Source: Candidatus Saccharimonadota bacterium
GTDB taxonomy: Bacteria > Patescibacteriota > Saccharimonadia > Saccharimonadales > Saccharimonadaceae
Direction of reading: 5' to 3'
Assembly (NCBI GenBank): GCA_017510925.1
Contig: JAFWLT010000003.1
Location: 1-57,666, forward strand
Length of the DNA: 57,666 nucleotides
The position numbers were made by a program, and so were the translations under genes. Positions 2 to 13,822 of the stretch are shown here, in pieces (positions within the stretch are counted from its first letter, which is position 1; the number at the start of each line of letters is the position of its first letter). A model generated the notes under the pieces. It made no database searches. It saw only the letters and a program-made list of their open reading frames with translations, and was not told the DNA's origin.

Positions 2-1435
2 GAAAAAGAGGAAGAAGAAAAGGAGTCTGAAGACGAGAAAGAAGAAGAAAAGGAAGAGGACTCTGACGATAAGAGTGACGACAAAGAAGACGACGATTCT
101 GATGATGATAAAAACGACGACAAAGAAGATAAAAAAGAAGACAAAAAAGAGGAAAAGAAAGAAGAGAAAAAAGGCGACAAGAAGTCTAAACTTGCAAACA
201 GCAACAATCCAGTATTAAAGTGGATTGGTACTCACCAAAAACTTTCAATTGGGATTGGTGTTGGTTTTGTGATTTTTATAATCTTTATGATTTGGGCTTT
301 CGCAATTGCTCCAGCCGTGACAATCACTTTGAAACTAGAAACCCTCACCGGTAATTTCTCTGAAAATGTTTCATTTACTGATAAATTAGCTGATGAAAAC
401 GTCAAAGAAGGTAAATTCTATATCGAAGAAAAGAAAATAGAAGACAAAGCAGAAGTAGAATTTGATGCAACCGGCAAGAAAAATGTTGGCGAGAAAGCCA
501 GTGGTAATGTGGTTGTCTACGCTTATTTCAAGAAGGCTGGTTCTGTAGCTTTGAAGGCTGGTTCTGCCTTTACTTACGACAACAAACTTAAATTTACCTC
601 CACAGAAGACGCTACACTTTCTTGGGATGGTAAAGATATGAATAAATGCGACAACAAAAATAACGCTACTAGCTTGATTAACTCCGGTTGTCAAATTTCT
701 GGTAGAGTAAAAGTTGCAGCAACCGAACCTGGCACAAAATTCAATATCGCTGCTGCCAGCTCTGGATGGAAGAGCCCTGAAGGCGTTTCTGGGGCCTATT
801 CTGACGCTGCAATGGCAGGTGGCACAGATAAAGAAGTTACCGTAGTCCAACAATCCGATATTGAAGAAGCTGTAAAGAAACTCACCACTGGCGAAGAAGC
901 CAAGCAAAAGAAGGAAGACGATCTTAAGAAAATCAAAGAAAGTTTGAACGAAGGTCAATTCTTGATCGAATCTAGCTTTAAACAAACTACCGGCGATCCA
1001 GTTTCTGATCCAGAAGTTGGTAAAGAAGTAGCAGAAGGCAAAAAAGCTAAAATCACCGTTACTGCCACTACTACAGTATTTGTGATTGATGAAACCAAGC
1101 TCAAAGAATTTATTACTGAGAAAGCCAAACTTGAGAAGGGCTACAAGATTTATGAGATGAAAGATCCATTCGTAGAAAACTTCTCTAATACCGAGGCTGG
1201 TTACGTAGGCAAACTCAAGACTTCTTATGTAGCTGGTTCTACCGTTACAGAAAACGACGTAGTAGAAACTGCAAAAGATAAAGGCATTGGCACTGCCAAG
1301 AGAGATATTTCGGATCACTTTGATGGTATTAAATCTATTGATATCTCTACTTCTGTGCCTTGGGTAACTTCCGTACCTGGCAACCCAGAAAAGATCACTG
1401 TGATTATCAATACTGACGGCGATAAAAAGGAGTAA
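2..1435 (+). CDS. Membrane-anchored protein, baseplate-J-like type (5' truncated)
   Basis: The reading frame is open from base 2 and its start lies outside the window. The visible N-terminal part is about 65 residues almost entirely Glu, Asp, Lys and Ser. A short basic stretch and one membrane helix (about bases 240-310, rich in Ile, Phe and Val) follow, then about 370 residues with no further helix. The outer part has beta-rich segments of the type 'GKKNVGEKASGNVVVYAYF' and 'VAATEPGTKFNIAA'. From memory, these resemble CPR proteins annotated as baseplate J/gp47-like. That suggests a type II membrane protein with a charged cytoplasmic tail and a beta-rich outer domain. It ends 3 bases before the RuvX-MltG gene, so the two are probably co-transcribed. 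Function unknown; the family assignment is tentative. Confidence 0.6.
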   Translation, partial: EKEEEEKESEDEKEEEKEEDSDDKSDDKEDDDSDDDKNDDKEDKKEDKKEEKKEEKKGDKKSKLANSNNPVLKWIGTHQKLSIGIGVGFVIFIIFMIWAFAIAPAVTITLKLETLTGNFSENVSFTDKLADENVKEGKFYIEEKKIEDKAEVEFDATGKKNVGEKASGNVVVYAYFKKAGSVALKAGSAFTYDNKLKFTSTEDATLSWDGKDMNKCDNKNNATSLINSGCQISGRVKVAATEPGTKFNIAAASSGWKSPEGVSGAYSDAAMAGGTDKEVTVVQQSDIEEAVKKLTTGEEAKQKKEDDLKKIKESLNEGQFLIESSFKQTTGDPVSDPEVGKEVAEGKKAKITVTATTTVFVIDETKLKEFITEKAKLEKGYKIYEMKDPFVENFSNTEAGYVGKLKTSYVAGSTVTENDVVETAKDKGIGTAKRDISDHFDGIKSIDISTSVPWVTSVPGNPEKITVIINTDGDKKE

Positions 1436-1438
1436 AAA

Positions 1439-2827
1439 TTGAAGATTATTGGCCTAGATGTGGGCACCAAACGCATTGGCGTGGCGCGTGCTGATTCTAC
1501 TACCCGAATTGCTGTACCATCGGGGTTTATTACCGTGGATGGCACCGAGTGGGATGAGATTTCTAGGTTAGCAAAACTCTATAGTACTAATTGGTTCGTA
1601 TTAGGACTTCCTCGTAGTAACGAAGGTAACGAGACTCAGCAATCACAATACGTGCGCAGTTTTGCAAAAGAACTTTTAAAGCGAATTCCAGATGCCAAAA
1701 TCAGATTTCAAGACGAATCGCTTACGTCTGTGGTAGCCGAGGATAGATTGAAAGCTCGTAAGAAAACTTACGAAAAAGGTGAAATTGATTCTGAAGCAGC
1801 CGCAATTATTTTGCAAGACTTTCTAGAGACATTTAATAAAAATGATGTTAAAGTAGAAGAGGTAAAAGAAGAAACTAATATAATAAAAAATAACATTGAT
1901 ACAGTAAAAGAGGTGGCCAGAAAGGAGAGCGACAAGGTTAAGATGAGCGCAAAGAAGACTAAACACAAAATAAAGAAATGGCCGATTTTTCTGGTCCTTT
2001 TGGTAATTGTAGCGGGCTGCGTGGGGGGATTTTTCGTTGTCCAAAAAATTAGAGAAAGAAACGCTGAAGAACGTCGCAAAGAATATGCGCGTATTGAAGC
2101 AGAAATGAAGGCCGAGGTTTTTGATTTTACAGTTAAACCAGGTGAAACAATTTTTGACATCAAAAAGCATTTAGTAGAAGCCGGATATAGTATAGAAGAA
2201 GTAAATAAGGCTTTTGACGCCGAATATGATTTTGCTTTCTTAAAAGGACGCCCAGCAGGAGCTACACTTGAAGGCTATTTATATGGTGAAACTTATGAAT
2301 TTTATAAGGGCGTTCCCGTAGAAGATATTGTCACCAAATATCTAGAAAAGATGGGTGAAGTAATTGCCGAAAATAATTTGGAAGCTAGATATGCAGCTCA
2401 CGGTCTTTCGCTTTTCGAAGGGATCACACTAGCTTCGGTGGTTCAAAAAGAATCGCCAGCAGGGGAACACGCTACAGTAGCACAAGTATTTATGACAAGA
2501 TTAGCCTATGGAATCCCAATGGGTAGCGATGTCACGGTAACTTACGCTCTGAACGTCGTAGACCCAGACCGTACTACTTACAAAGACAACCAAGCAGCTC
2601 TTAAGATTGATTCTTGCTATAATACACGTCTTCACGGTGGACTACCTTGTGGGCCGATTTCTAATCCTTCACTCGCATCGCTTTTGGCCGTAGCCGATCC
2701 AGCCGATAGTTCTTATCTGTATTTCTTGACAGGGGACGATGGTTTGATGTATTATAGTTATACAGAGGCTGAACATAACCAGAATGCTTACCTACATTGT
2801 CAGAACCTCTGTAACATCTCATTATGA
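1439..2827 (+). CDS. ruvX-mltG: RuvX (YqgF) nuclease fused to MltG lytic transglycosylase
   Basis: One continuous 462-codon frame joins two normally separate proteins. Residues 1-135 are a complete YqgF/RuvX domain (Holliday-junction resolvase or rRNA-processing nuclease): D7 in GLDVGTKRIG, GLP at 56-58, E93 in DESLTS and D117 in IDSEAA, the expected acidic set. Residues 136-180 are a charged linker and 181-202 a single membrane helix. Residues 225-462 are a YceG/MltG domain that cleaves nascent peptidoglycan; E338 in LASVVQKES matches the catalytic Glu, with LEGYLYGETYEF before it and GLPCGPISNP and EHNQNAY after. The predicted topology (nuclease inside, transglycosylase outside) suits both halves. 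The start is TTG at 1439. ruvX and mltG are neighbours in many bacteria, so fusion of neighbours is plausible. An in-frame Met169 with AAGG before it could give separate MltG. Confidence 0.9.
   Translation: MKIIGLDVGTKRIGVARADSTTRIAVPSGFITVDGTEWDEISRLAKLYSTNWFVLGLPRSNEGNETQQSQYVRSFAKELLKRIPDAKIRFQDESLTSVVAEDRLKARKKTYEKGEIDSEAAAIILQDFLETFNKNDVKVEEVKEETNIIKNNIDTVKEVARKESDKVKMSAKKTKHKIKKWPIFLVLLVIVAGCVGGFFVVQKIRERNAEERRKEYARIEAEMKAEVFDFTVKPGETIFDIKKHLVEAGYSIEEVNKAFDAEYDFAFLKGRPAGATLEGYLYGETYEFYKGVPVEDIVTKYLEKMGEVIAENNLEARYAAHGLSLFEGITLASVVQKESPAGEHATVAQVFMTRLAYGIPMGSDVTVTYALNVVDPDRTTYKDNQAALKIDSCYNTRLHGGLPCGPISNPSLASLLAVADPADSSYLYFLTGDDGLMYYSYTEAEHNQNAYLHCQNLCNISL
1922..1945 (+). promoter_or_regulatory. 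Possible internal ribosome binding site and ATG for separate MltG
   Basis: Within the fusion gene, AAGGAG (1922-1927) and AAGG (1934-1937) precede an in-frame ATG at 1943 (codon 169). The peptide starting there, MSAKKTKHKIKKWPIFL, has the basic-then-helix form of a normal MltG N-terminus. This is a suggestion from spacing and sequence only. Confidence 0.35.
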
Positions 2828-3912
2828 TAGATAAAAAACCAACAAAATGGGAACGTTTCAAGCAAATTTTGCCATATATTTTGACGGCTGGTTTTACGAT
2901 TGGCCTAGTAGCCGTTGGCTCTATAAACAAGGGCACATCTGGCGCTAGTTTGTCTCTAGATTCATTCGCAAAAAGCGATTACGATATTTCTGTTGATCAG
3001 TTGACCGAGATGTATGTGGTGGCAGATCTTTCTGATGCTCTTAACCTTGCTTCAGCATCCGACGTAGCATCCAACTACGTGGTGACTACTTCTATGTATG
3101 ATGCTGGTCAAACAGCTACCGGGAAACTCGAAAAACCTTCGATCACCAATATCGATGTATCCCGTGGTGTGATTGAACACGTGGTTCAAGGTGGCGAGAG
3201 CGCAGAAGTACTCGCTGCCAAATATGGCCTTACGGCAGATCAGGTACGTTGGTCTAACGGTCTAAAGACTAATGAGATTCCGGTTGGCACTGTGCTTCAT
3301 CTTCCTAGTGTACCGGGTATTGTTTATACAGTAAAAAGTGGTGATACCGTGGAATCTATTGCAGCTAGATATGGTTCTTCTGCAGTGGAGATTACAGCTC
3401 TAAATGACCTTGAGGAATCTGGTGTAAGAGAAGGCGCGATGATTGTTATCAAGAACGGTTCGCTTCCTGAAACTGAGCGTCCAGAATATGTTGCTCCAAG
3501 AAGAGCGTCTACTACTTATAGCACTACTACTTATCGCTATTCTTATCTTGGTAGCGCATCCGATCGCCAAAACATCCAAGTGATCTACCCACGCTTTACT
3601 GGTGCTGGTGGTGGCCAGTGTGTAAACTGGGCTTCTTATATGCGCCCAGATCTTGGCGCGCTTAGACTTGGTAACGCTAGAGACTGGGCTAGAGGTGCAG
3701 CAGCCCACGGCTATTCGGTAAACCGTACACCAACAGCTGGTTCAATCTTCCAGACTTCTTCTGGTTGGTATGGCCACGTAGGCTATGTGGAGGCCGTAAA
3801 TGCTGATGGTTCTATCACGGTTACAGAAATGAACTATGGTTATGTGCCTTATAGAGTGATTCGTGCTATTATCCCAGCTGGGTCTGTGGGAAACTTTAAT
3901 TATATCCACTAG
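2824..3912 (+). CDS. Secreted/anchored LysM-LysM-CHAP peptidoglycan hydrolase
   Basis: A 362-residue cell-wall protein. A membrane helix or uncleaved signal lies at residues 15-33 after a basic start. Two LysM glycan-binding repeats lie at about 119-161 and 167-210 (the second has YTVKSGDTVESIAARYG). A Ser/Thr/Tyr-rich linker covers 222-245, and a C-terminal CHAP amidase/endopeptidase domain covers about 250-362. C266 in GGGQCVNWA and H318 in YGHVGYVE are the expected catalytic Cys and His. The ATG overlaps the TGA of ruvX-mltG by 4 bases (ATGA), so it is translationally coupled to MltG. Both products act on peptidoglycan, consistent with a wall-turnover operon. The bond cut (peptide or amide) cannot be read from the sequence. 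Confidence 0.88.
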   Translation: MIDKKPTKWERFKQILPYILTAGFTIGLVAVGSINKGTSGASLSLDSFAKSDYDISVDQLTEMYVVADLSDALNLASASDVASNYVVTTSMYDAGQTATGKLEKPSITNIDVSRGVIEHVVQGGESAEVLAAKYGLTADQVRWSNGLKTNEIPVGTVLHLPSVPGIVYTVKSGDTVESIAARYGSSAVEITALNDLEESGVREGAMIVIKNGSLPETERPEYVAPRRASTTYSTTTYRYSYLGSASDRQNIQVIYPRFTGAGGGQCVNWASYMRPDLGALRLGNARDWARGAAAHGYSVNRTPTAGSIFQTSSGWYGHVGYVEAVNADGSITVTEMNYGYVPYRVIRAIIPAGSVGNFNYIH

Positions 3913-3940
3913 TTTTTGTGAAAAAAATGTGTGAAAACTA

Positions 3941-3969
3941 TTGACAGTATTATGCTTATGCTTTATTAT
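3941..3969 (+). promoter_or_regulatory. Consensus promoter for a small RNA
   Basis: TTGACA (3941-3946), a 17-base spacer and TATTAT (3964-3969). The predicted start is near 3976, and no credible ORF follows before the terminator at 4102-4123. Confidence 0.7.
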
Positions 3970-3975
3970 TAAATT

Positions 3976-4123
3976 AAGCTGGTACGCTTCACAGGGGTTC
4001 CACTGACAATTAGTGGAGTGTGGAGACTTACATTAATAAAACAAACAGCGGATTAAAACAAACCAATGTGCCCCACGGGTGGGCGCGCATCAGCGCGGGA
4101 GAGCGACCTTCGGGTCGCTTTTT
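3976..4123 (+). ncRNA. Candidate structured small RNA, about 150 nt, class unknown
   Basis: This stretch has its own consensus promoter and intrinsic terminator and no convincing ORF. A compound hairpin is visible: outer stem CTTCACA (3987-3993) with TGTGGAG (4019-4025), and inner stem CCACT (4000-4004) with AGTGG (4012-4016). An A-rich single-stranded stretch follows, then a short GC hairpin (CGCGC-ATCA-GCGCG, around 4084-4097) and the terminator. It does not show the SRP RNA apical loop, tmRNA or RNase P signatures, and is too short for the last two. It could be a 6S-like or lineage-specific RNA. The next gene, obg, has its own promoter, so this is not simply the obg leader. Confidence 0.5.
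4102..4123 (+). terminator. Intrinsic terminator of the small RNA
   Basis: AGCGACC (4102-4108), TTCG tetraloop, GGTCGCT (4113-4119), then a run of T. Confidence 0.85.
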
Positions 4124-4139
4124 CATTTCATAAGTTTTA

Positions 4140-4148
4140 TGGTATAAT
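4140..4148 (+). promoter_or_regulatory. Extended -10 promoter of obg, leaderless
   Basis: TGG-TATAAT with the hexamer at 4143-4148. The obg ATG at 4155 begins 6 bases later, about where transcription should start, and there is no room for a Shine-Dalgarno site. Confidence 0.7.
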
Positions 4149-4154
4149 ATAATT

Positions 4155-5432
4155 ATGTTTGTAGATAAGGCAAAAGTGAGTTTGAAGGCCGGTGACGGTG
4201 GCAATGGCGCCGTTTCTTTTCGCCACGAAATTTATATCCCTAAAGGTGGCCCAGATGGTGGCGACGGTGGTAAAGGTGGGGATATTGTTTTTAAAGCCGA
4301 CAAAGATACAGACACTTTAGTTGATTTTAGATTTACCCCAATTTTGACTGCCGAAAACGGCAAAGCTGGTTCGGGCCAACGCTCGGCTGGGCGCTCTGGC
4401 AAAGATTTAATTGTAGAAGTGCCAATTGGTACCGTAGTATATAAAGATGGGGAATTAATCGCTGACTTAACCCACGATGGGCAAACTGCAATTATCGCCA
4501 AGGGTGGCGACGGTGGGTTCGGTAATGCTCATTTTAAGAGTTCTACCAGACAGACCCCAATGGTAGCCGAAGTTGGTGAACCGGGTGAAGAATTTGAAGC
4601 TGAGCTCGAGCTAAAATCTCTTGCTGATGTAGGTTTGGTAGGGCTTCCAAATGCCGGTAAATCTACTTTTCTCTCTGTAGTTTCTAATGCAAAACCAGAA
4701 ATCGCTGATTATCCATTTACTACTATTACGCCACAACTTGGCGTAGCTACAGTAGATGGTCACGATCTTTTGATCGCTGATATCCCAGGTTTAATTGAAG
4801 GTGCTGCCGAGGGTAAAGGCTTGGGGCACGATTTCCTTCGCCACGTAGAAAGAACTGCTGTGCTTCTTCATCTTGTAGATATTTATAATGATGACGCTGG
4901 CGAGGCTTATGAGACCATCAGAAATGAACTTGCTCAATATGAAGATTTAGCTTCTCGCCCAGAGATTGTGGCCCTCACCAAATGCGAAGGTGTAGATGAA
5001 GAAATTATCAAGATGCAAATGAGCTCAATTCTTTCTAAAAACCCAGAGGCTAAGATCTTTGCAATTTCTGCCTCTGCCCATCAAGGGCTCACGGAGCTAC
5101 TCCGAGAATTAAACAATGAAGTTATTAAAGAAAAACCAGAAATTGTAGAAGAATTAGAAGTTTCTGAAGATATTCCTACTATTGAACTCGATAAAAAGCT
5201 TTTGAAAGATGCTTGGAATATTGAAAGGCTCGAAGATAAATTTGTAGTAACAGGGGAGAAAATTGAGAAATTTGCCCGTAGAACAGATCTTAGTAACTAT
5301 GCTAGCGTAAATAGACTTAGAGATATTATGAAGAAAATGGGGATTCGTGCGGAGCTCACCACAATGGGAGCAGAGCCAGACTCTATTATTTCGATCGCCG
5401 GTAAAGAATTTACCTTAGTTGAGGATTATTAA
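4155..5432 (+). CDS. obg: GTPase Obg/CgtA
   Basis: 425 residues, normal length for Obg, a ribosome-assembly and stress GTPase. The glycine-rich Obg fold covers about 1-157 (GGPDGGDGGKGGD and similar), the G domain about 158-325, and the C-terminal OCT domain about 345-425. G1 is GLPNAGKST, the switch region TTITPQLG and G3 DIPGLIEGA. G4, normally NKxD, reads TKCE, so both the Asn and the Asp that contact guanine are changed (Asp to Glu). It opens an operon with trmD, whose ATG follows the stop directly, and recG. The mRNA appears to start at the ATG itself. Confidence 0.95.
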   Translation: MFVDKAKVSLKAGDGGNGAVSFRHEIYIPKGGPDGGDGGKGGDIVFKADKDTDTLVDFRFTPILTAENGKAGSGQRSAGRSGKDLIVEVPIGTVVYKDGELIADLTHDGQTAIIAKGGDGGFGNAHFKSSTRQTPMVAEVGEPGEEFEAELELKSLADVGLVGLPNAGKSTFLSVVSNAKPEIADYPFTTITPQLGVATVDGHDLLIADIPGLIEGAAEGKGLGHDFLRHVERTAVLLHLVDIYNDDAGEAYETIRNELAQYEDLASRPEIVALTKCEGVDEEIIKMQMSSILSKNPEAKIFAISASAHQGLTELLRELNNEVIKEKPEIVEELEVSEDIPTIELDKKLLKDAWNIERLEDKFVVTGEKIEKFARRTDLSNYASVNRLRDIMKKMGIRAELTTMGAEPDSIISIAGKEFTLVEDY

Positions 5433-9113: not shown

Positions 9114-9197
9114 GCCCGAGTGGTGAAATTGGTATACACGTATGCCTTAGGAGCATATGCCTCGTGCGTGCTGGTTCGAGTCCAGTCTCGGGCACCA
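9114..9197 (+). tRNA. tRNA-Leu (anticodon TAG)
   Basis: 84 bases with CCA encoded. The acceptor stem GCCCGAG/CTCGGGC is perfect with discriminator A. The anticodon loop CTTAGGA gives TAG (reads CUA and other CUN codons). There is a long variable arm (type II) and a T-arm with GGTTCGAGTCC. It stands at the left edge of the accessory region that ends near 12.4 kb. Confidence 0.95.
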
Positions 9198-9239
9198 AGT
9201 TGAAATTATTGGCCTTTCGGGGTCATTTTTTCTCTGTGA

Positions 9240-9465
9240 AGGTGTGGTTCGAACCAGTACAAATTGTTTACTAAGCTCTGGATATTGTTTTTCAATAGGA
9301 ATGAGGTATTTTACAGTGGTGAATTGAATGGTTCGACCCGAAAGCTTGAGATCATACCTAGTTTCTTTATCACAGTTCTTTTACGTTCCCAATCATCACT
9401 ATCAAAGTCCTCTTTGGCATTTCAAACACAGCGTCTTCTTCCGGATCAAAAACTCTTAAAGTCAT
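9240..9465 (-). pseudogene. Probable decayed minus-strand gene, family unknown
   Basis: The intact part from 9465 encodes 31 residues. Reading on in the other minus frames gives further charged, protein-like peptides to about 9240, so at least two frameshifts would be needed to restore one product. It has its own promoter (see 9488-9515). No family recognised; a random ORF mosaic remains possible. Confidence 0.35.
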
Positions 9466-9487
9466 TTTAGCTATCCCGTTTTGCTAC

Positions 9488-9515
9488 ATTATACCATCTT
9501 TTTGAGATAATGCAA
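9488..9515 (-). promoter_or_regulatory. Minus-strand promoter of the decayed gene
   Basis: On the minus strand TTGCAT (9515-9510), a 16-base spacer and TGG-TATAAT (hexamer 9493-9488). Confidence 0.5.
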
Positions 9516-9532
9516 TTTTATCCTATTCTAGC
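9516..9532. repeat. Left copy of 17-bp direct repeat flanking the zinc-ribbon gene
   Basis: TTTTATCCTATTCTAGC. The right copy at 12265-12281 differs at one base (TTTTAACCTATTCTAGC). The pair encloses the 814-codon gene and may mark the ends of an inserted segment. Confidence 0.45.
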
Positions 9533-9564
9533 ATCTGCTGAGCTGGTAGGTAGGCTTATTATTA

Positions 9565-9593
9565 TTGACAAGTTTAAATTTTTAATGTATAAT
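9565..9593 (+). promoter_or_regulatory. Consensus promoter of the zinc-ribbon gene, leaderless
   Basis: TTGACA (9565-9570), 17 bases, TATAAT (9588-9593). The ATG at 9601 falls at the expected transcription start. Confidence 0.8.
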
Positions 9594-9600
9594 ATAGCAT

Positions 9601-12045
9601 ATGGATAGTAGTAAAAATATTCCAATTTCCGAGTCAGAACTTATTCCCGAATGGGATTATGAGGCAAATAATAAACTTGGCTTAAATCCAAACAAACTAC
9701 TCACGAATAGCTCGAAAAAAGCCTGCTGGGTCTGTAGAGTATGTGGGCATAAATGGCAAACCCAAATTAATGTTAGAAAAAAAGGCCACGGCTGCCCTCG
9801 ATGTGGACACTTAAAAGTTGGTATCAGTAATGCCGCGCTTAAAGATTCAAATAAAAGCCTTTTGGCTGCTTTCCCGGAGGTTACTAAAGTTTGGAATTAT
9901 AATAAAAACAAAGGTTTAAAACCTGAGGATTTTGCCGTAAATTCCAATAAAAAGGTGTGGTGGAAATGCTCTGAATGTGGTAAAGAATGGCAAACTTTTA
10001 TCTATGCTAAAGCAAAGTCTAAAACTACAACTTGTAGAGAGTGTACTTTTAGGAAACTGGATCGAGTTAGCTGCTACCTAAAACCAGGTATAAATGATTT
10101 AGCATCTTGTAACAAGAAAGTCTCAGCAGAATGGAATTATGAAAGAAATGGTAATTTGGAACCAAAAGACGTCCCGGTTCGTAGCATAAAAAAAGTATGG
10201 TGGAGATGTGGTAAGGGGCACGAATGGGAAGCATCAGTTTTAAGTAGAACTAAAGAAGGTTATCGTGGCTGCCCAATTTGCGCAAATAAATTAATCGTAG
10301 CTGGGATAAACGATTTAGCCACCACCAGACCAGACTTAGCAAAAAATTGGAACTACGAGAAAAATGGTGATTTGAAACCAACTGATATTTCTGCTGGCTC
10401 TAATAGAAAGGTATGGTGGAGGTGTGACAGAGGACACGAATGGAAAACAATGCCAAACTGTTGTGGATTTTGCCCATATTGTATCAATCAGAAAGTCTGG
10501 CCCGGTTATAATGATTTGGCTACCGTTGATCCAATGCTGACAAAGGAATGGAACTATGTAAAGAATGGGAAGTTAAGACCAGAGAGCACCTTATCAGGTT
10601 CAGGTAAGAAAGTATGGTGGATATGCTCTAACTGTGGACACGAATGGCGAGCAACTGTAGTTCAAAGAGTAAAAGGTAGTGGATGCCCGGTATGCGCCAA
10701 TCGGGTAGTTGTTAGTGGCCACAATGATCTAGCTACCGTCGATCCCAAATTAGCCGAAGAATGGAACTACGAGAAGAATGGCAACCTAAAACCGGAAAAT
10801 ATAATACCGGGATCTCCTAAAAAAGTCTGGTGGAAATGTAAAAAGGGCCACGAGTGGCAAGCTACAATAGAGAGTAGATATCATCAGAATGTCCACTGCC
10901 CTATTTGTTCATCAAATAAGCGGACATCAATACCAGAAAAAGCCATCGGTTATTATCTTGAAAAATATGGTATTACTGTAGAGGAAAACAAAAGGGTGAA
11001 AGGCTACGAATTGGATATTTTTATCCCAAATATGTCTCTTGCAATTGAGTATGATGGGCGATATTATCACAGTAACAAAGATAAAGACCTAAGAAAAAAC
11101 AGACTTTGCAAAAAGCTGGGAATCCAGCTAATAAGAATTAGGGAGCCGGAACTACCACCATTAAAAAGCACGTCCACTGACATAAAAATTAAAAGCCTAA
11201 GTCATAATTACAGCTATTTAAATAGCCCTATAAGCCAAGTATTGTCAATTATTATTGGTAATAAAAGATTTGATATAGACGTAGATCGTGACTATGGCGA
11301 AATTTACACAAGATATCAAAAAGGCGAAGATGACAAATCCCTAGCCAGAGTACATAGTGAGCTATTGAAAGAATGGGATTACGAAAAAAATAAAATTGAC
11401 CCAGCTATTGTCAGTTCGGGCTCACGTTATAAAGCTTGGTGGAAATGTTCTAAATGTGGGCACGAATGGCAGACTCCTGTATATGTAAGAACACACCTAG
11501 GATGTGGATGCCGTAAATGCAATATTGAGCAAAGCGCCAAACTAAGATCAATCGTTACAAATCGAAATGATAGTCTTTTAGTAAAAAATCCAAAATTAGC
11601 TAAAGAATGGAATTATGAGAAAAATGGCAGTTTAAGGCCAGACCAAATGTACGCAAAATCGCCAAAGAAAGTTTGGTGGGTGTGTGACAAAGGTCACGAG
11701 TGGGAAGCTCCTATAGCCAATCGTGCAGCTGGACGGGGATGTCCGGTATGTTCGAATAGAATAGTATTACCAGGCTACAATGACCTCGCAACGGTAAATC
11801 CTGGATTAACTAAAGAGTGGAATTATGAGAAAAATGGCGATTTGAAGCCAAACCAAGTTTTAGCAGTATCTAGTAAATATGCCTGGTGGAAATGCCCATA
11901 TTGTGGTAAAGAATGGCAAGCTAGAATACGTGAACGCAATGGAAGAAAAGTAGCCAGAGGTTGTCGCAATTGCTCAGCCAAAAGGAAAAATGTCCAAGCA
12001 ATGCAATTTATGGAAACAATGAAAAAGAATATTACAAGCGTATAG
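9601..12045 (+). CDS. Nine-repeat zinc-ribbon protein with embedded restriction-nuclease-like domain
   Basis: 814 residues. About 65-75-residue units are repeated nine times, each with a 'EWNYEKNGxLKPxxxxxxSxKKVWWxC' core and two Cys pairs (CxxCGHEW... and CPxC). This is the DUF4379-type treble-clef/zinc-ribbon repeat. Units 1-6 fill residues about 10-437 and units 7-9 about 590-800. Between them, about 443-520, is a domain with E446, D472 in GYELDIFIP, E483-x-D485 in AIEYDGRYYH and a final LIRIRE strand. That is the layout of a Vsr/PD-(D/E)xK-like endonuclease. Residues 520-590 lack zinc motifs. A DNA- or RNA-binding nuclease, perhaps in defence or of mobile origin, is inferred. The gene is isolated between decayed sequence and direct repeats, with a strong leaderless promoter. 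Confidence 0.82.
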   Translation: MDSSKNIPISESELIPEWDYEANNKLGLNPNKLLTNSSKKACWVCRVCGHKWQTQINVRKKGHGCPRCGHLKVGISNAALKDSNKSLLAAFPEVTKVWNYNKNKGLKPEDFAVNSNKKVWWKCSECGKEWQTFIYAKAKSKTTTCRECTFRKLDRVSCYLKPGINDLASCNKKVSAEWNYERNGNLEPKDVPVRSIKKVWWRCGKGHEWEASVLSRTKEGYRGCPICANKLIVAGINDLATTRPDLAKNWNYEKNGDLKPTDISAGSNRKVWWRCDRGHEWKTMPNCCGFCPYCINQKVWPGYNDLATVDPMLTKEWNYVKNGKLRPESTLSGSGKKVWWICSNCGHEWRATVVQRVKGSGCPVCANRVVVSGHNDLATVDPKLAEEWNYEKNGNLKPENIIPGSPKKVWWKCKKGHEWQATIESRYHQNVHCPICSSNKRTSIPEKAIGYYLEKYGITVEENKRVKGYELDIFIPNMSLAIEYDGRYYHSNKDKDLRKNRLCKKLGIQLIRIREPELPPLKSTSTDIKIKSLSHNYSYLNSPISQVLSIIIGNKRFDIDVDRDYGEIYTRYQKGEDDKSLARVHSELLKEWDYEKNKIDPAIVSSGSRYKAWWKCSKCGHEWQTPVYVRTHLGCGCRKCNIEQSAKLRSIVTNRNDSLLVKNPKLAKEWNYEKNGSLRPDQMYAKSPKKVWWVCDKGHEWEAPIANRAAGRGCPVCSNRIVLPGYNDLATVNPGLTKEWNYEKNGDLKPNQVLAVSSKYAWWKCPYCGKEWQARIRERNGRKVARGCRNCSAKRKNVQAMQFMETMKKNITSV

Positions 12046-12264
12046 GGAAAACAATGCCGAAAAATGATGATTCGATAATCAAAGAGCAAGATGAAGAAGA
12101 AGATATTGACGATGGTCTATGAAACAAAATAATACCCACAAAACTACCACTAGCTACGCAGGGGTTAAGATATCGATTTTTGGGGGTCTGACCCCCCGTC
12201 AAAACATAATGGGAATGGCCCTATCATACTCCGGAAAAAGTTTTTAGTGTTTCTGGCAGTGTCT

Positions 12265-12281
12265 TTTTAACCTATTCTAGC
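12265..12281. repeat. Right copy of 17-bp direct repeat
   Basis: TTTTAACCTATTCTAGC; 16 of 17 bases match the left copy at 9516-9532. Confidence 0.45.
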
Positions 12282-12388
12282 GAGAGAAAAAGAGACCAGG
12301 CGAGTAATTATTACTCATCAAATCCTCTTTCAACATAATTGCAACTTCTTTCGCTAAGGTGCACCATAATTCTATAGATTCCCCCCTG

Positions 12389-12417
12389 TTGCTACGAAAA
12401 GTAGCAATATTTTTTTA
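12389..12417 (+). terminator. Intrinsic terminator
   Basis: TTGCTAC (12389-12395) pairs with GTAGCAA (12401-12407), then a T-rich tract. It would end the zinc-ribbon transcript or an RNA from the preceding stretch. Confidence 0.75.
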
Positions 12418-12447
12418 AAATGTAAAGTAAAATTGCTGGTAAAAGTG

Positions 12448-12453
12448 TATAAT
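12448..12453 (+). promoter_or_regulatory. -10 box of the XRE regulator gene
   Basis: TATAAT preceded by AAAGTG; no good -35 at the right distance. A leader of about 40 bases with an AAAGG ribosome-binding site follows. Confidence 0.5.
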
Positions 12454-12499
12454 TTTAATAAAATAAGCCTTACAAAATAATTAACAAGAAAGGCAAGTT

Positions 12500-13333
12500 A
12501 TGTTATTTAATGACAAGCTAAAACAATTAAGAGGGGAATATAATTTAACCCAGGAAGAGCTCGCAGAAAAACTAGATGTATCTAGACAGGCGATCACAAA
12601 ATGGGAAAGTGGAGAAGGGGTACCAGATGTAGAAAATCTCAAGCAACTTGCAATCCTCTTTAATACCACCCTGGACGACCTAATCATGGAAGACAAAAAA
12701 GTAAAGGTCCCAGAAAAACAATATAGATACACAGAAAAAATAGAGATCGATCATACCAAGCATTTTGATTTCAAATTTATCAAAATCGGTGAAATTAATA
12801 TTTTGCCGAACGAAGAAGAAAACGTAAAAATTGAGATTTTGTCTGATACAGCCAAACCAGAAGAATCACTTAAAATTAAAACCGATAATCGTTACGACCG
12901 GATGGATTTAGAGATTAAAAATAAACAGGCTGCCATGAATGTGGCCTTAAATCTTTATCTTCCAGAAAAATATATTGACGAAATTGAGATAAATTCTGGT
13001 TCACGCGCACTAAATATCGCTGGGCTTGATATTAAGAAATTAGAATATGATGGCGACCTCAAATATTTGAATGTTAAAGATCATACCGTGGGAAGGATTA
13101 TACTTAACACTACCAAGTGCGATATTGAAGCTAATTATGATGAGCTAAACGGCATTCTAGAGGTAAACACAGTCAATTCTACTGCTAGAGTGATGGTTCC
13201 GAAAGGTACTATTTATCAAACCATTTTAAAAGGCATCAAAAATCAATTCGTAGATGCTGTAAATACTGAAAATGCACCGAATACGATTGAACTCAATGGT
13301 ATAGGGAGCAAACTAGTCGTAATTGAGAAATAG
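12500..13333 (+). CDS. XRE-family regulator with DUF4097-like beta domain
   Basis: 277 residues. Residues about 5-65 are a helix-turn-helix of the Xre/Cro type (LTQEELAEKLDVSRQAITKWESG). The remaining 200 residues are predicted all-beta, with short repeated strands (for example IEINSGSRALNIAGLDIKKL), as in DUF4097 domains of putative adhesin-like or sensor proteins. This architecture is common in Gram-positive-type genomes next to membrane proteins. The following TM2 gene has a promoter that starts right at this gene's stop codon. The regulator may act on that gene or itself; no operator is visible. Ligand unknown. Confidence 0.8.
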   Translation: MLFNDKLKQLRGEYNLTQEELAEKLDVSRQAITKWESGEGVPDVENLKQLAILFNTTLDDLIMEDKKVKVPEKQYRYTEKIEIDHTKHFDFKFIKIGEINILPNEEENVKIEILSDTAKPEESLKIKTDNRYDRMDLEIKNKQAAMNVALNLYLPEKYIDEIEINSGSRALNIAGLDIKKLEYDGDLKYLNVKDHTVGRIILNTTKCDIEANYDELNGILEVNTVNSTARVMVPKGTIYQTILKGIKNQFVDAVNTENAPNTIELNGIGSKLVVIEK

Positions 13334-13342
13334 TGGTATAAT
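13334..13342 (+). promoter_or_regulatory. Extended -10 promoter of the TM2 gene
   Basis: TGG-TATAAT (hexamer 13337-13342). It begins at the base after the TAG stop of the XRE gene. Confidence 0.7.
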
Positions 13343-13366
13343 ATAGGCATTATTTAAGGAGCTCTT

Positions 13367-13822
13367 ATGGCAGAAATACTAAAAGTCACAGCAAAAGAAA
13401 TTAAAATTGGCGATGATAATGGTGAAGTTATCACTGTGCCAAGAAAATCAGTCAACTACAGCGACCCAAAGGAAGGTGATAAAGTAAAGATCTTTAAAGA
13501 CGGCAAAAATTATATCATCTCTAAAGATACCACTAGCTCTGCTTCCATGAACGGAATTTACGAAGTAGATGACAAAGGTTACAAGAGGATTAATAAGCAC
13601 CTATTCGTATGGCTTGCTACATTCTTCTTGGGTGGTTTTGGCGTAGATAGATTCCTTAGAGGTCAAATTGGCCTTGGCGTATGCAAACTTCTATTTAGCT
13701 GGGTAACACTTGGTATTTGGCCACTTGTAGACTGGATTGTTGCATTATCGAAGGCTTATGGTGGAGCTTTTAGCAACACCGAAGAATTTACTTTTGACGA
13801 TATGGGTAACTGGGTAGAATGA
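13367..13822 (+). CDS. TM2-domain membrane protein
   Basis: 151 residues. Residues about 1-60 form a small beta-rich cytoplasmic domain (ITVPRKSVNYSDPKEGDKVKI). Residues about 75-140 are a TM2 domain: two membrane helices joined by a tight turn, with the pattern GGFGVDRFLRGQIGLGVCKLL...WPLVDWIVAL. TM2 proteins are common in bacteria and their role is unknown. An AAGGAG site precedes the ATG. The stop overlaps the next gene's ATG by 4 bases (ATGA), so the two are translated together and probably function together. Confidence 0.8.
   Translation: MAEILKVTAKEIKIGDDNGEVITVPRKSVNYSDPKEGDKVKIFKDGKNYIISKDTTSSASMNGIYEVDDKGYKRINKHLFVWLATFFLGGFGVDRFLRGQIGLGVCKLLFSWVTLGIWPLVDWIVALSKAYGGAFSNTEEFTFDDMGNWVE

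Follow-up and report, generated by a model that had tools for sequence, protein, structure and literature searches.

A DUF4379 zinc-ribbon array with an internal predicted Vsr/EDxHD-type nuclease domain, carried by elements inserted at bacterial tRNA 3' ends

The Vsr very-short-patch-repair endonuclease is a small mismatch-repair nickase that carries no array of zinc units. Phage group I and group II intron HEGs combine an EDxHD/Vsr domain at the C-terminus with three to five CapR/DUF4379-like units (NAR 2025, PMC12350094). I-Bth0305I (PDB 3r3p), an EDxHD homing endonuclease, is the nearest solved nuclease domain to the one described here, in sequence as well as in structure; the solved domain has no DUF4379 match. 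Odn of phage ICP1, an HEG-like nuclease that cuts the origin of a rival satellite, is a precedent for an HEG-type weapon between mobile elements; the likeness is one of function, and in sequence Odn is unrelated, its GIY-YIG nuclease being joined to a RepA-like DNA-binding domain (PMC8263062). The zinc unit is also shared by the trypanosomatid mitoribosome proteins mt-SAF33 and mS66, which differ in their ribosomal setting and have no matched nuclease domain. The protein described here resembles the phage intron HEGs (PMC12350094) in possessing both kinds of domain, an array of ~60-aa units and an EDxHD/Vsr-type nuclease. It differs from them in that 4-13 units flank an internal nuclease and that the genes lie on bacterial chromosomes, in elements at tRNA ends. 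Together with its relatives it forms an uncharacterised family of predicted modular DNA endonucleases, spread over several phyla of animal gut bacteria, with the catalytic domain between two zinc-module arms of variable length. New here are the internal nuclease of the bacterial loci, as opposed to the mostly C-terminal one of viral relatives, and its carriage as cargo of tRNA-associated elements. If the arms read DNA, the family would offer a natural, modular nuclease for long sites, available in many alleles for comparison, and its context makes it testable whether HEG-type nucleases on integrative elements are weapons between mobile DNAs or selfish spreaders.

The window, that is the whole stretch of DNA analysed, comprises positions 1 to 57,666 of contig JAFWLT010000003.1 (GCA_017510925.1) from Candidatus Saccharimonadota bacterium. 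ORF 9601-12045 (+) encodes 814 aa and is the sole DUF4379 locus of the source genome. Pfam detected nine DUF4379 stretches (whole-protein E 7e-159), arranged as six units, the nuclease domain and three further units, which bears out the layout proposed in the earlier note. Each of the nine scored 54-84 bits against the Pfam gathering cut-off of 24.5 for DUF4379 (PF14311). The unit consensus is W-x(4)-N-x(4)-P-...-WWKC-x2-GHEW-...-R-...-CPxC, with Cys, Trp, Asn and Arg positions nearly invariant (n = 692 units). The features of the gene are as follows.

9565-9593 (+): consensus sigma-70-type promoter, candidate leaderless start (12/12 hexamer matches, 17-nt spacer; pattern only)
9601-12045 (+): 814-aa DUF4379 array with internal EDxHD/Vsr-type nuclease (ORF, Pfam; dN/dS against relative L052)
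9640-9807 (+): DUF4379 unit 1 (Pfam)
9886-10047 (+): DUF4379 unit 2 (Pfam)
10123-10290 (+): DUF4379 unit 3 (Pfam)
10336-10485 (+): DUF4379 unit 4 (Pfam)
10537-10704 (+): DUF4379 unit 5 (Pfam)
10750-10914 (+): DUF4379 unit 6 (Pfam)
10918-11160 (+): nuclease domain, about aa 440-520, with E446, D472, E483-x-D485, H490 and K499 (profile, alignment, structure prediction)
11362-11523 (+): DUF4379 unit 7 (Pfam)
11596-11760 (+): DUF4379 unit 8 (Pfam)
11806-11979 (+): DUF4379 unit 9 (Pfam)

The promoter (TTGACA-17-TATAAT) ends 8 nt upstream of the ATG, so that a leaderless start is plausible from the sequence pattern; of the strong leaderless promoter claimed earlier, the consensus match is complete and the leaderless part is a plausible reading. 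In the full-length predicted structure the domains reached pLDDT 85 and the pTM was 0.43, which leaves the relative domain placement undefined, and we therefore make no claim on array geometry.

The stretch between units six and seven (aa 446-515) is restriction-endonuclease-like (Pfam REase_MTES_1575, E 6e-8, under Pfam's cut-off). In an alignment of unit-nuclease-unit segments from 69 sequences, S443, E446, D472, E483, G486, H490 and K499 were invariant, and D485, R512 and E515 were conserved in at least 90%. The residues singled out in the earlier note (E446, D472 and E483-x-D485) all belong to these two sets. AlphaFold2 predicted the domain with high confidence (pLDDT 93). Comparison with Foldseek and VIA-align gave I-Bth0305I (PDB 3r3p) as the closest solved structure (Z 9.9, rmsd 2.4 over 91), with further matches to NGO0050 (Z 9.0) and to Vsr, both in the Vsr-DNA complex 1cw0 (Z 8.5, rmsd 2.7 over 98) and in 1vsr (Z 8.3). 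I-Bth0305I was also found from sequence by a profile search of the PDB (E 6e-4). When the E, D, H and D positions that give the EDxHD type its name were compared, E483 paired with a Glu of I-Bth0305I and D485 with an Asn, and H490 lay opposite no His. We concluded from these structure and sequence matches that the domain is predicted with high confidence to have a Vsr/EDxHD-type fold; structure prediction, the check suggested earlier, thus returned a nuclease fold.

The gene lies in an island at the 3' end of a tRNA-Leu gene, with the following features.

9114-9197 (+): tRNA-Leu (UAG) gene, integration hotspot; the island starts at the tRNA 3' end (tRNA gene call, comparison with genome G127)
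9192-9418 (-): large serine recombinase reduced to a decayed, frameshifted C-terminal stump, residues 480-555 (tblastn)
9198-13366 (no strand): island missing from the matching tRNA-Leu locus of G127 (same-genus comparison; right end approximate)
9210-9225 (+): terminator-like hairpin right after the tRNA (pattern match only)
12282-12381 (no strand): short remnant with 84% identity to L052 11664-11763, which lies beyond the L052 nuclease (sequence comparison)

In G127, a genome of the same genus, the tRNA-Leu is followed directly by the counterpart of the window gene at 13367. The recombinase stump was detected by tblastn with the L052 recombinase (E 8e-22; pieces of 91% and 56% identity). In the relative L052 the nuclease is 78% identical, the recombinase is intact and the locus adjoins another tRNA-Leu (GAG isoacceptor). 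The right-hand limit of the island was searched for a tRNA-end repeat, and none was found. We concluded that the element once inserted here has lost its recombinase to decay and survives in the window through the nuclease gene. The decayed upstream sequence noted earlier is real, and the mobile-gene setting suspected earlier is supported, recurring as tRNA-end elements across the family; the gene does not simply stand alone, since its island begins at the tRNA 3' end and more than 400 relatives were detected. Comparison with L052 gave a dN/dS of 0.133/1.78, or ~0.08, with dS saturated, and relative pairs gave ~0.08-0.17; ORF 9601-12045 is under purifying selection. Saccharibacteria genomes are small, so it needs explaining why a 2.4 kb gene has stayed intact when the recombinase was lost. 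The island also holds an orphan gene (12500-13333) with an RstR/HTH_3-type N-terminus and a weak C-terminal match to toastrack (DUF4097), of which no full-length relative was found in 40 same-genus genomes. The gene that marks the far side of the island, and that abuts the tRNA-Leu in G127, encodes a TM2-domain protein (13367-13822).

A scan of genome contigs yielded 426 relatives, from which 79 loci were retained. Their hosts are mostly gut or rumen Clostridia, Bacilli and Saccharibacteria, with a few Gastranaerophilales and others; the sample includes many metagenome assemblies and some short contigs, with genes called by a simple longest-ORF rule. The nuclease is internal to the array in 79/79 retained loci. 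It is likewise internal in 95/95 non-redundant loci (4-13 units each) after an extension with a unit-nuclease-unit profile, which itself selects for this layout. Among viral contigs searched with the same query, 23 had a C-terminal nuclease, four an internal one and 30 no detected nuclease domain. The distribution is sporadic: DUF4379 occurs in 3/121 genomes of the source family, and the internal-nuclease layout in 13/294 genomes of the source class and 17/245 of one Clostridia order. Giant viruses (Klosneuvirus, Marseillevirus and others) have predicted proteins in BFVD that match the unit-plus-nuclease model, several of these being named restriction endonuclease or zinc-ribbon protein.

Across the 95 loci, a tRNA lies within 8 kb in ~43, and in all but one of these the nearest tRNA has its 3' end toward the nuclease gene; where the tRNA is less than 1 kb away, it faces the gene in 22 loci and faces away in one. 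Copies of the tRNA 3' end were found in 9/26 loci and with none of the shuffled probes, and direct repeats on the left and right in 14/67 loci versus 2/335 shuffles. The commonest neighbour by similarity clustering is a serine recombinase (21/95 loci), followed by TnpV (seven) and relaxase (five). In eight Saccharibacteria loci a serine-recombinase-type gene of 516-556 aa abuts the tRNA 3' end (four calls confirmed by Pfam, the remainder made with a model built from those four). L049, L089 and L092 lie on elements with relaxase and TnpV, one of them also with a serine recombinase. Tyrosine integrases were present somewhere in every genome tested and are therefore uninformative as a marker. The insertion is best seen at L119, for which two relatives present the empty site TCACTCGGACCA-ATTACC. 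The left junction of L119 reads TCACTCGGACCA-AAAATCC and the right junction CACCCCGACCA-ATTACC, so that the right end bears its own tRNA-like end (CACCCCGACCA) and not a copy of the target; the inserted unit of ~2.9 kb holds the nuclease and a 236-aa ORF, with no recombinase. L061 was considered as a second empty site and set aside, its left side being ambiguous. Given tRNA-end insertion, repeats and recombinases at many loci, we concluded that the nuclease genes of the family are cargo of tRNA-targeted integrative elements, which occupy tRNA 3' ends.

The recombinases and nucleases of these elements do not co-vary. L054 and L088 (both at tRNA-Gln) have recombinases 88% and nucleases 42% identical, and L047 and L053 (both at tRNA-Phe) 72.5% and 38%; L053 and L054 share nucleases of 74% identity but recombinases of 21%. 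The common left flank of L049 and L089 (98% identical) ends ~145 bp inside the gene frame, and the proteins are 44% identical thereafter. Nucleases are exchanged between elements. The arrays vary as well, L057 having extra internal copies of array segments compared with L056. Within units, substitutions fall at about a dozen positions, in which neither a clear specificity code nor positive selection was seen; a TALE-like code of one or two specificity residues per unit was rejected on this scatter. The adjoining tRNA was also considered as the target and found unsupported: differing nucleases occur at one tRNA and similar ones at different tRNAs, and nearest-neighbour nucleases agreed in tRNA isotype in 8/28 cases versus 4.4 expected (P 0.1). 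Two loci carry tandem nuclease pairs (L054 7887-9134 and 9131-11209; L047 3397-5769 and 5633-8005), and in each pair one gene has a smaller or weaker set of units, as would be expected if the older copy were decaying next to the newer.

We give about an even chance to the reading that the protein is a stand-alone DNA endonuclease with a long site, borne by an element and serving in conflicts among mobile DNAs. Integrative elements targeting tRNA 3' ends carry the nuclease, which would act on its own; the zinc treble-clef units would grip DNA on both sides and set the Vsr/EDxHD-type domain on the intervening stretch, and the enzyme would probably cleave phages or rival mobile elements whose DNA bears a long target. 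The target would be absent or disrupted in host and element, which would make a methyltransferase unnecessary, and specificity would change by whole-gene swaps between elements and by gain or loss of array units. The reading builds on the layout, the fold with its invariant residues, the purifying selection, the tRNA-element context and the exchange of nucleases, all results of computation, and further on the lack of a recurrent partner or methyltransferase, the PADLOC matches of some neighbours and the Odn precedent; from these we infer DNA binding, cleavage, a long target and a part in conflict, so that the long target and the defence role raised earlier are proposals. The scatter of substitutions within units, with no visible code, and the failure of PADLOC to recognise the protein weigh against it. 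More broadly, the relatives travel on such elements among gut bacteria, where they probably cut rival mobile DNA or further their own spread.

It is mainly the swap pattern that leads us to prefer interference over a free-standing selfish homing endonuclease, which would cut chromosomes that lack its gene and be copied into them as the double-strand break is repaired, the host gaining nothing. We regard homing as possible, though rather unlikely, and retain it because the nuclease fold is the EDxHD homing endonuclease fold, the phage relatives are annotated as homing endonucleases, and proteins combining CapR/DUF4379-like units with EDxHD/Vsr domains have been placed among HEGs (NAR 2025, PMC12350094). 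The sporadic distribution, the absence of a partner gene and units free of a recombinase (the 2.9 kb unit of L119 is one) are also in its favour, and a functional homing endonuclease could yield much of the same pattern. However, the junctions resemble recombinase attachment sites, as at the tRNA-like right end of L119, the same tRNA site holds differing nucleases and similar nucleases sit at different tRNAs, and many copies are accompanied by intact large serine recombinases. Another candidate role is an accessory one, in which the nuclease would aid the serine recombinase in integration or excision or mobilise the element in its place. Pointing that way, the recombinase gene of L124 stops 4 nt ahead of the nuclease frame, and in L095 a single 1393-aa frame (1119-5297) encodes both an intact large serine recombinase and the DUF4379-nuclease array; recombinase-free units also occur at tRNA ends. 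We consider this role improbable, as the recombinase is absent near most loci, the two proteins fail to co-vary, and the L095 joint rests on a single metagenome assembly and is either a real fusion or an assembly artefact. It would be equally surprising if the recombinase-free units were a minimal mobile element of a new kind, in which the zinc-array nuclease itself would drive insertion at tRNA 3' ends, hop between isotypes and regenerate the tRNA with its own terminator.

A further alternative is an RNA-directed protein, whose array would hold structured RNA for the nuclease domain to cut or organise. The sole solved DUF4379 proteins are those of trypanosomatid mitoribosomes or their assembly intermediates, and the structure match of the units is to mitoribosomal chains (Z 11.4). 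We consider it very improbable, since the catalytic domain has a DNase fold of the Vsr/restriction type, in which acidic and histidine residues are conserved, and since both annotation and literature make the phage relatives DNA homing enzymes; the earlier suggestion that the array might hold several RNA strands thus finds little support. Least probable of all is the restriction enzyme of a classical restriction-modification pair, to which the restriction-endonuclease-like fold and a weak match to a type II enzyme among the PADLOC models would point, as neither 181 neighbour proteins nor neighbour clustering contained a recurrent methyltransferase.

The same 181 proteins and the clustering yielded no recurrent partner, no Pfam family being present in more than three of the proteins, and none of the conserved housekeeping neighbours that the earlier note had named as evidence against its reading. 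Downstream of many nucleases lies an ORF of ~140-290 aa; these ORFs are mostly unrelated to one another and were rejected as a conserved partner gene. The 814-aa protein itself was unrecognised by PADLOC models (best E 0.004). Among the neighbours there are scattered PADLOC matches (mad genes, PtuA, GajB, Type IIG and Type I), a tally made without a control, and enrichment is therefore not claimed.

Extra copies of the tRNA-Pro 3' end, spaced ~180-300 bp apart, were observed downstream of the tRNA at four loci:

L233, 2359-2388
L236, 1082-1106 and 784-806
L239, 445-481
L078, 7370-7389 and 7563-7582

At L233, L236 and L239 the nuclease is absent from the short stretch examined, and these copies at the same hotspot are possibly scars or very small non-coding elements.
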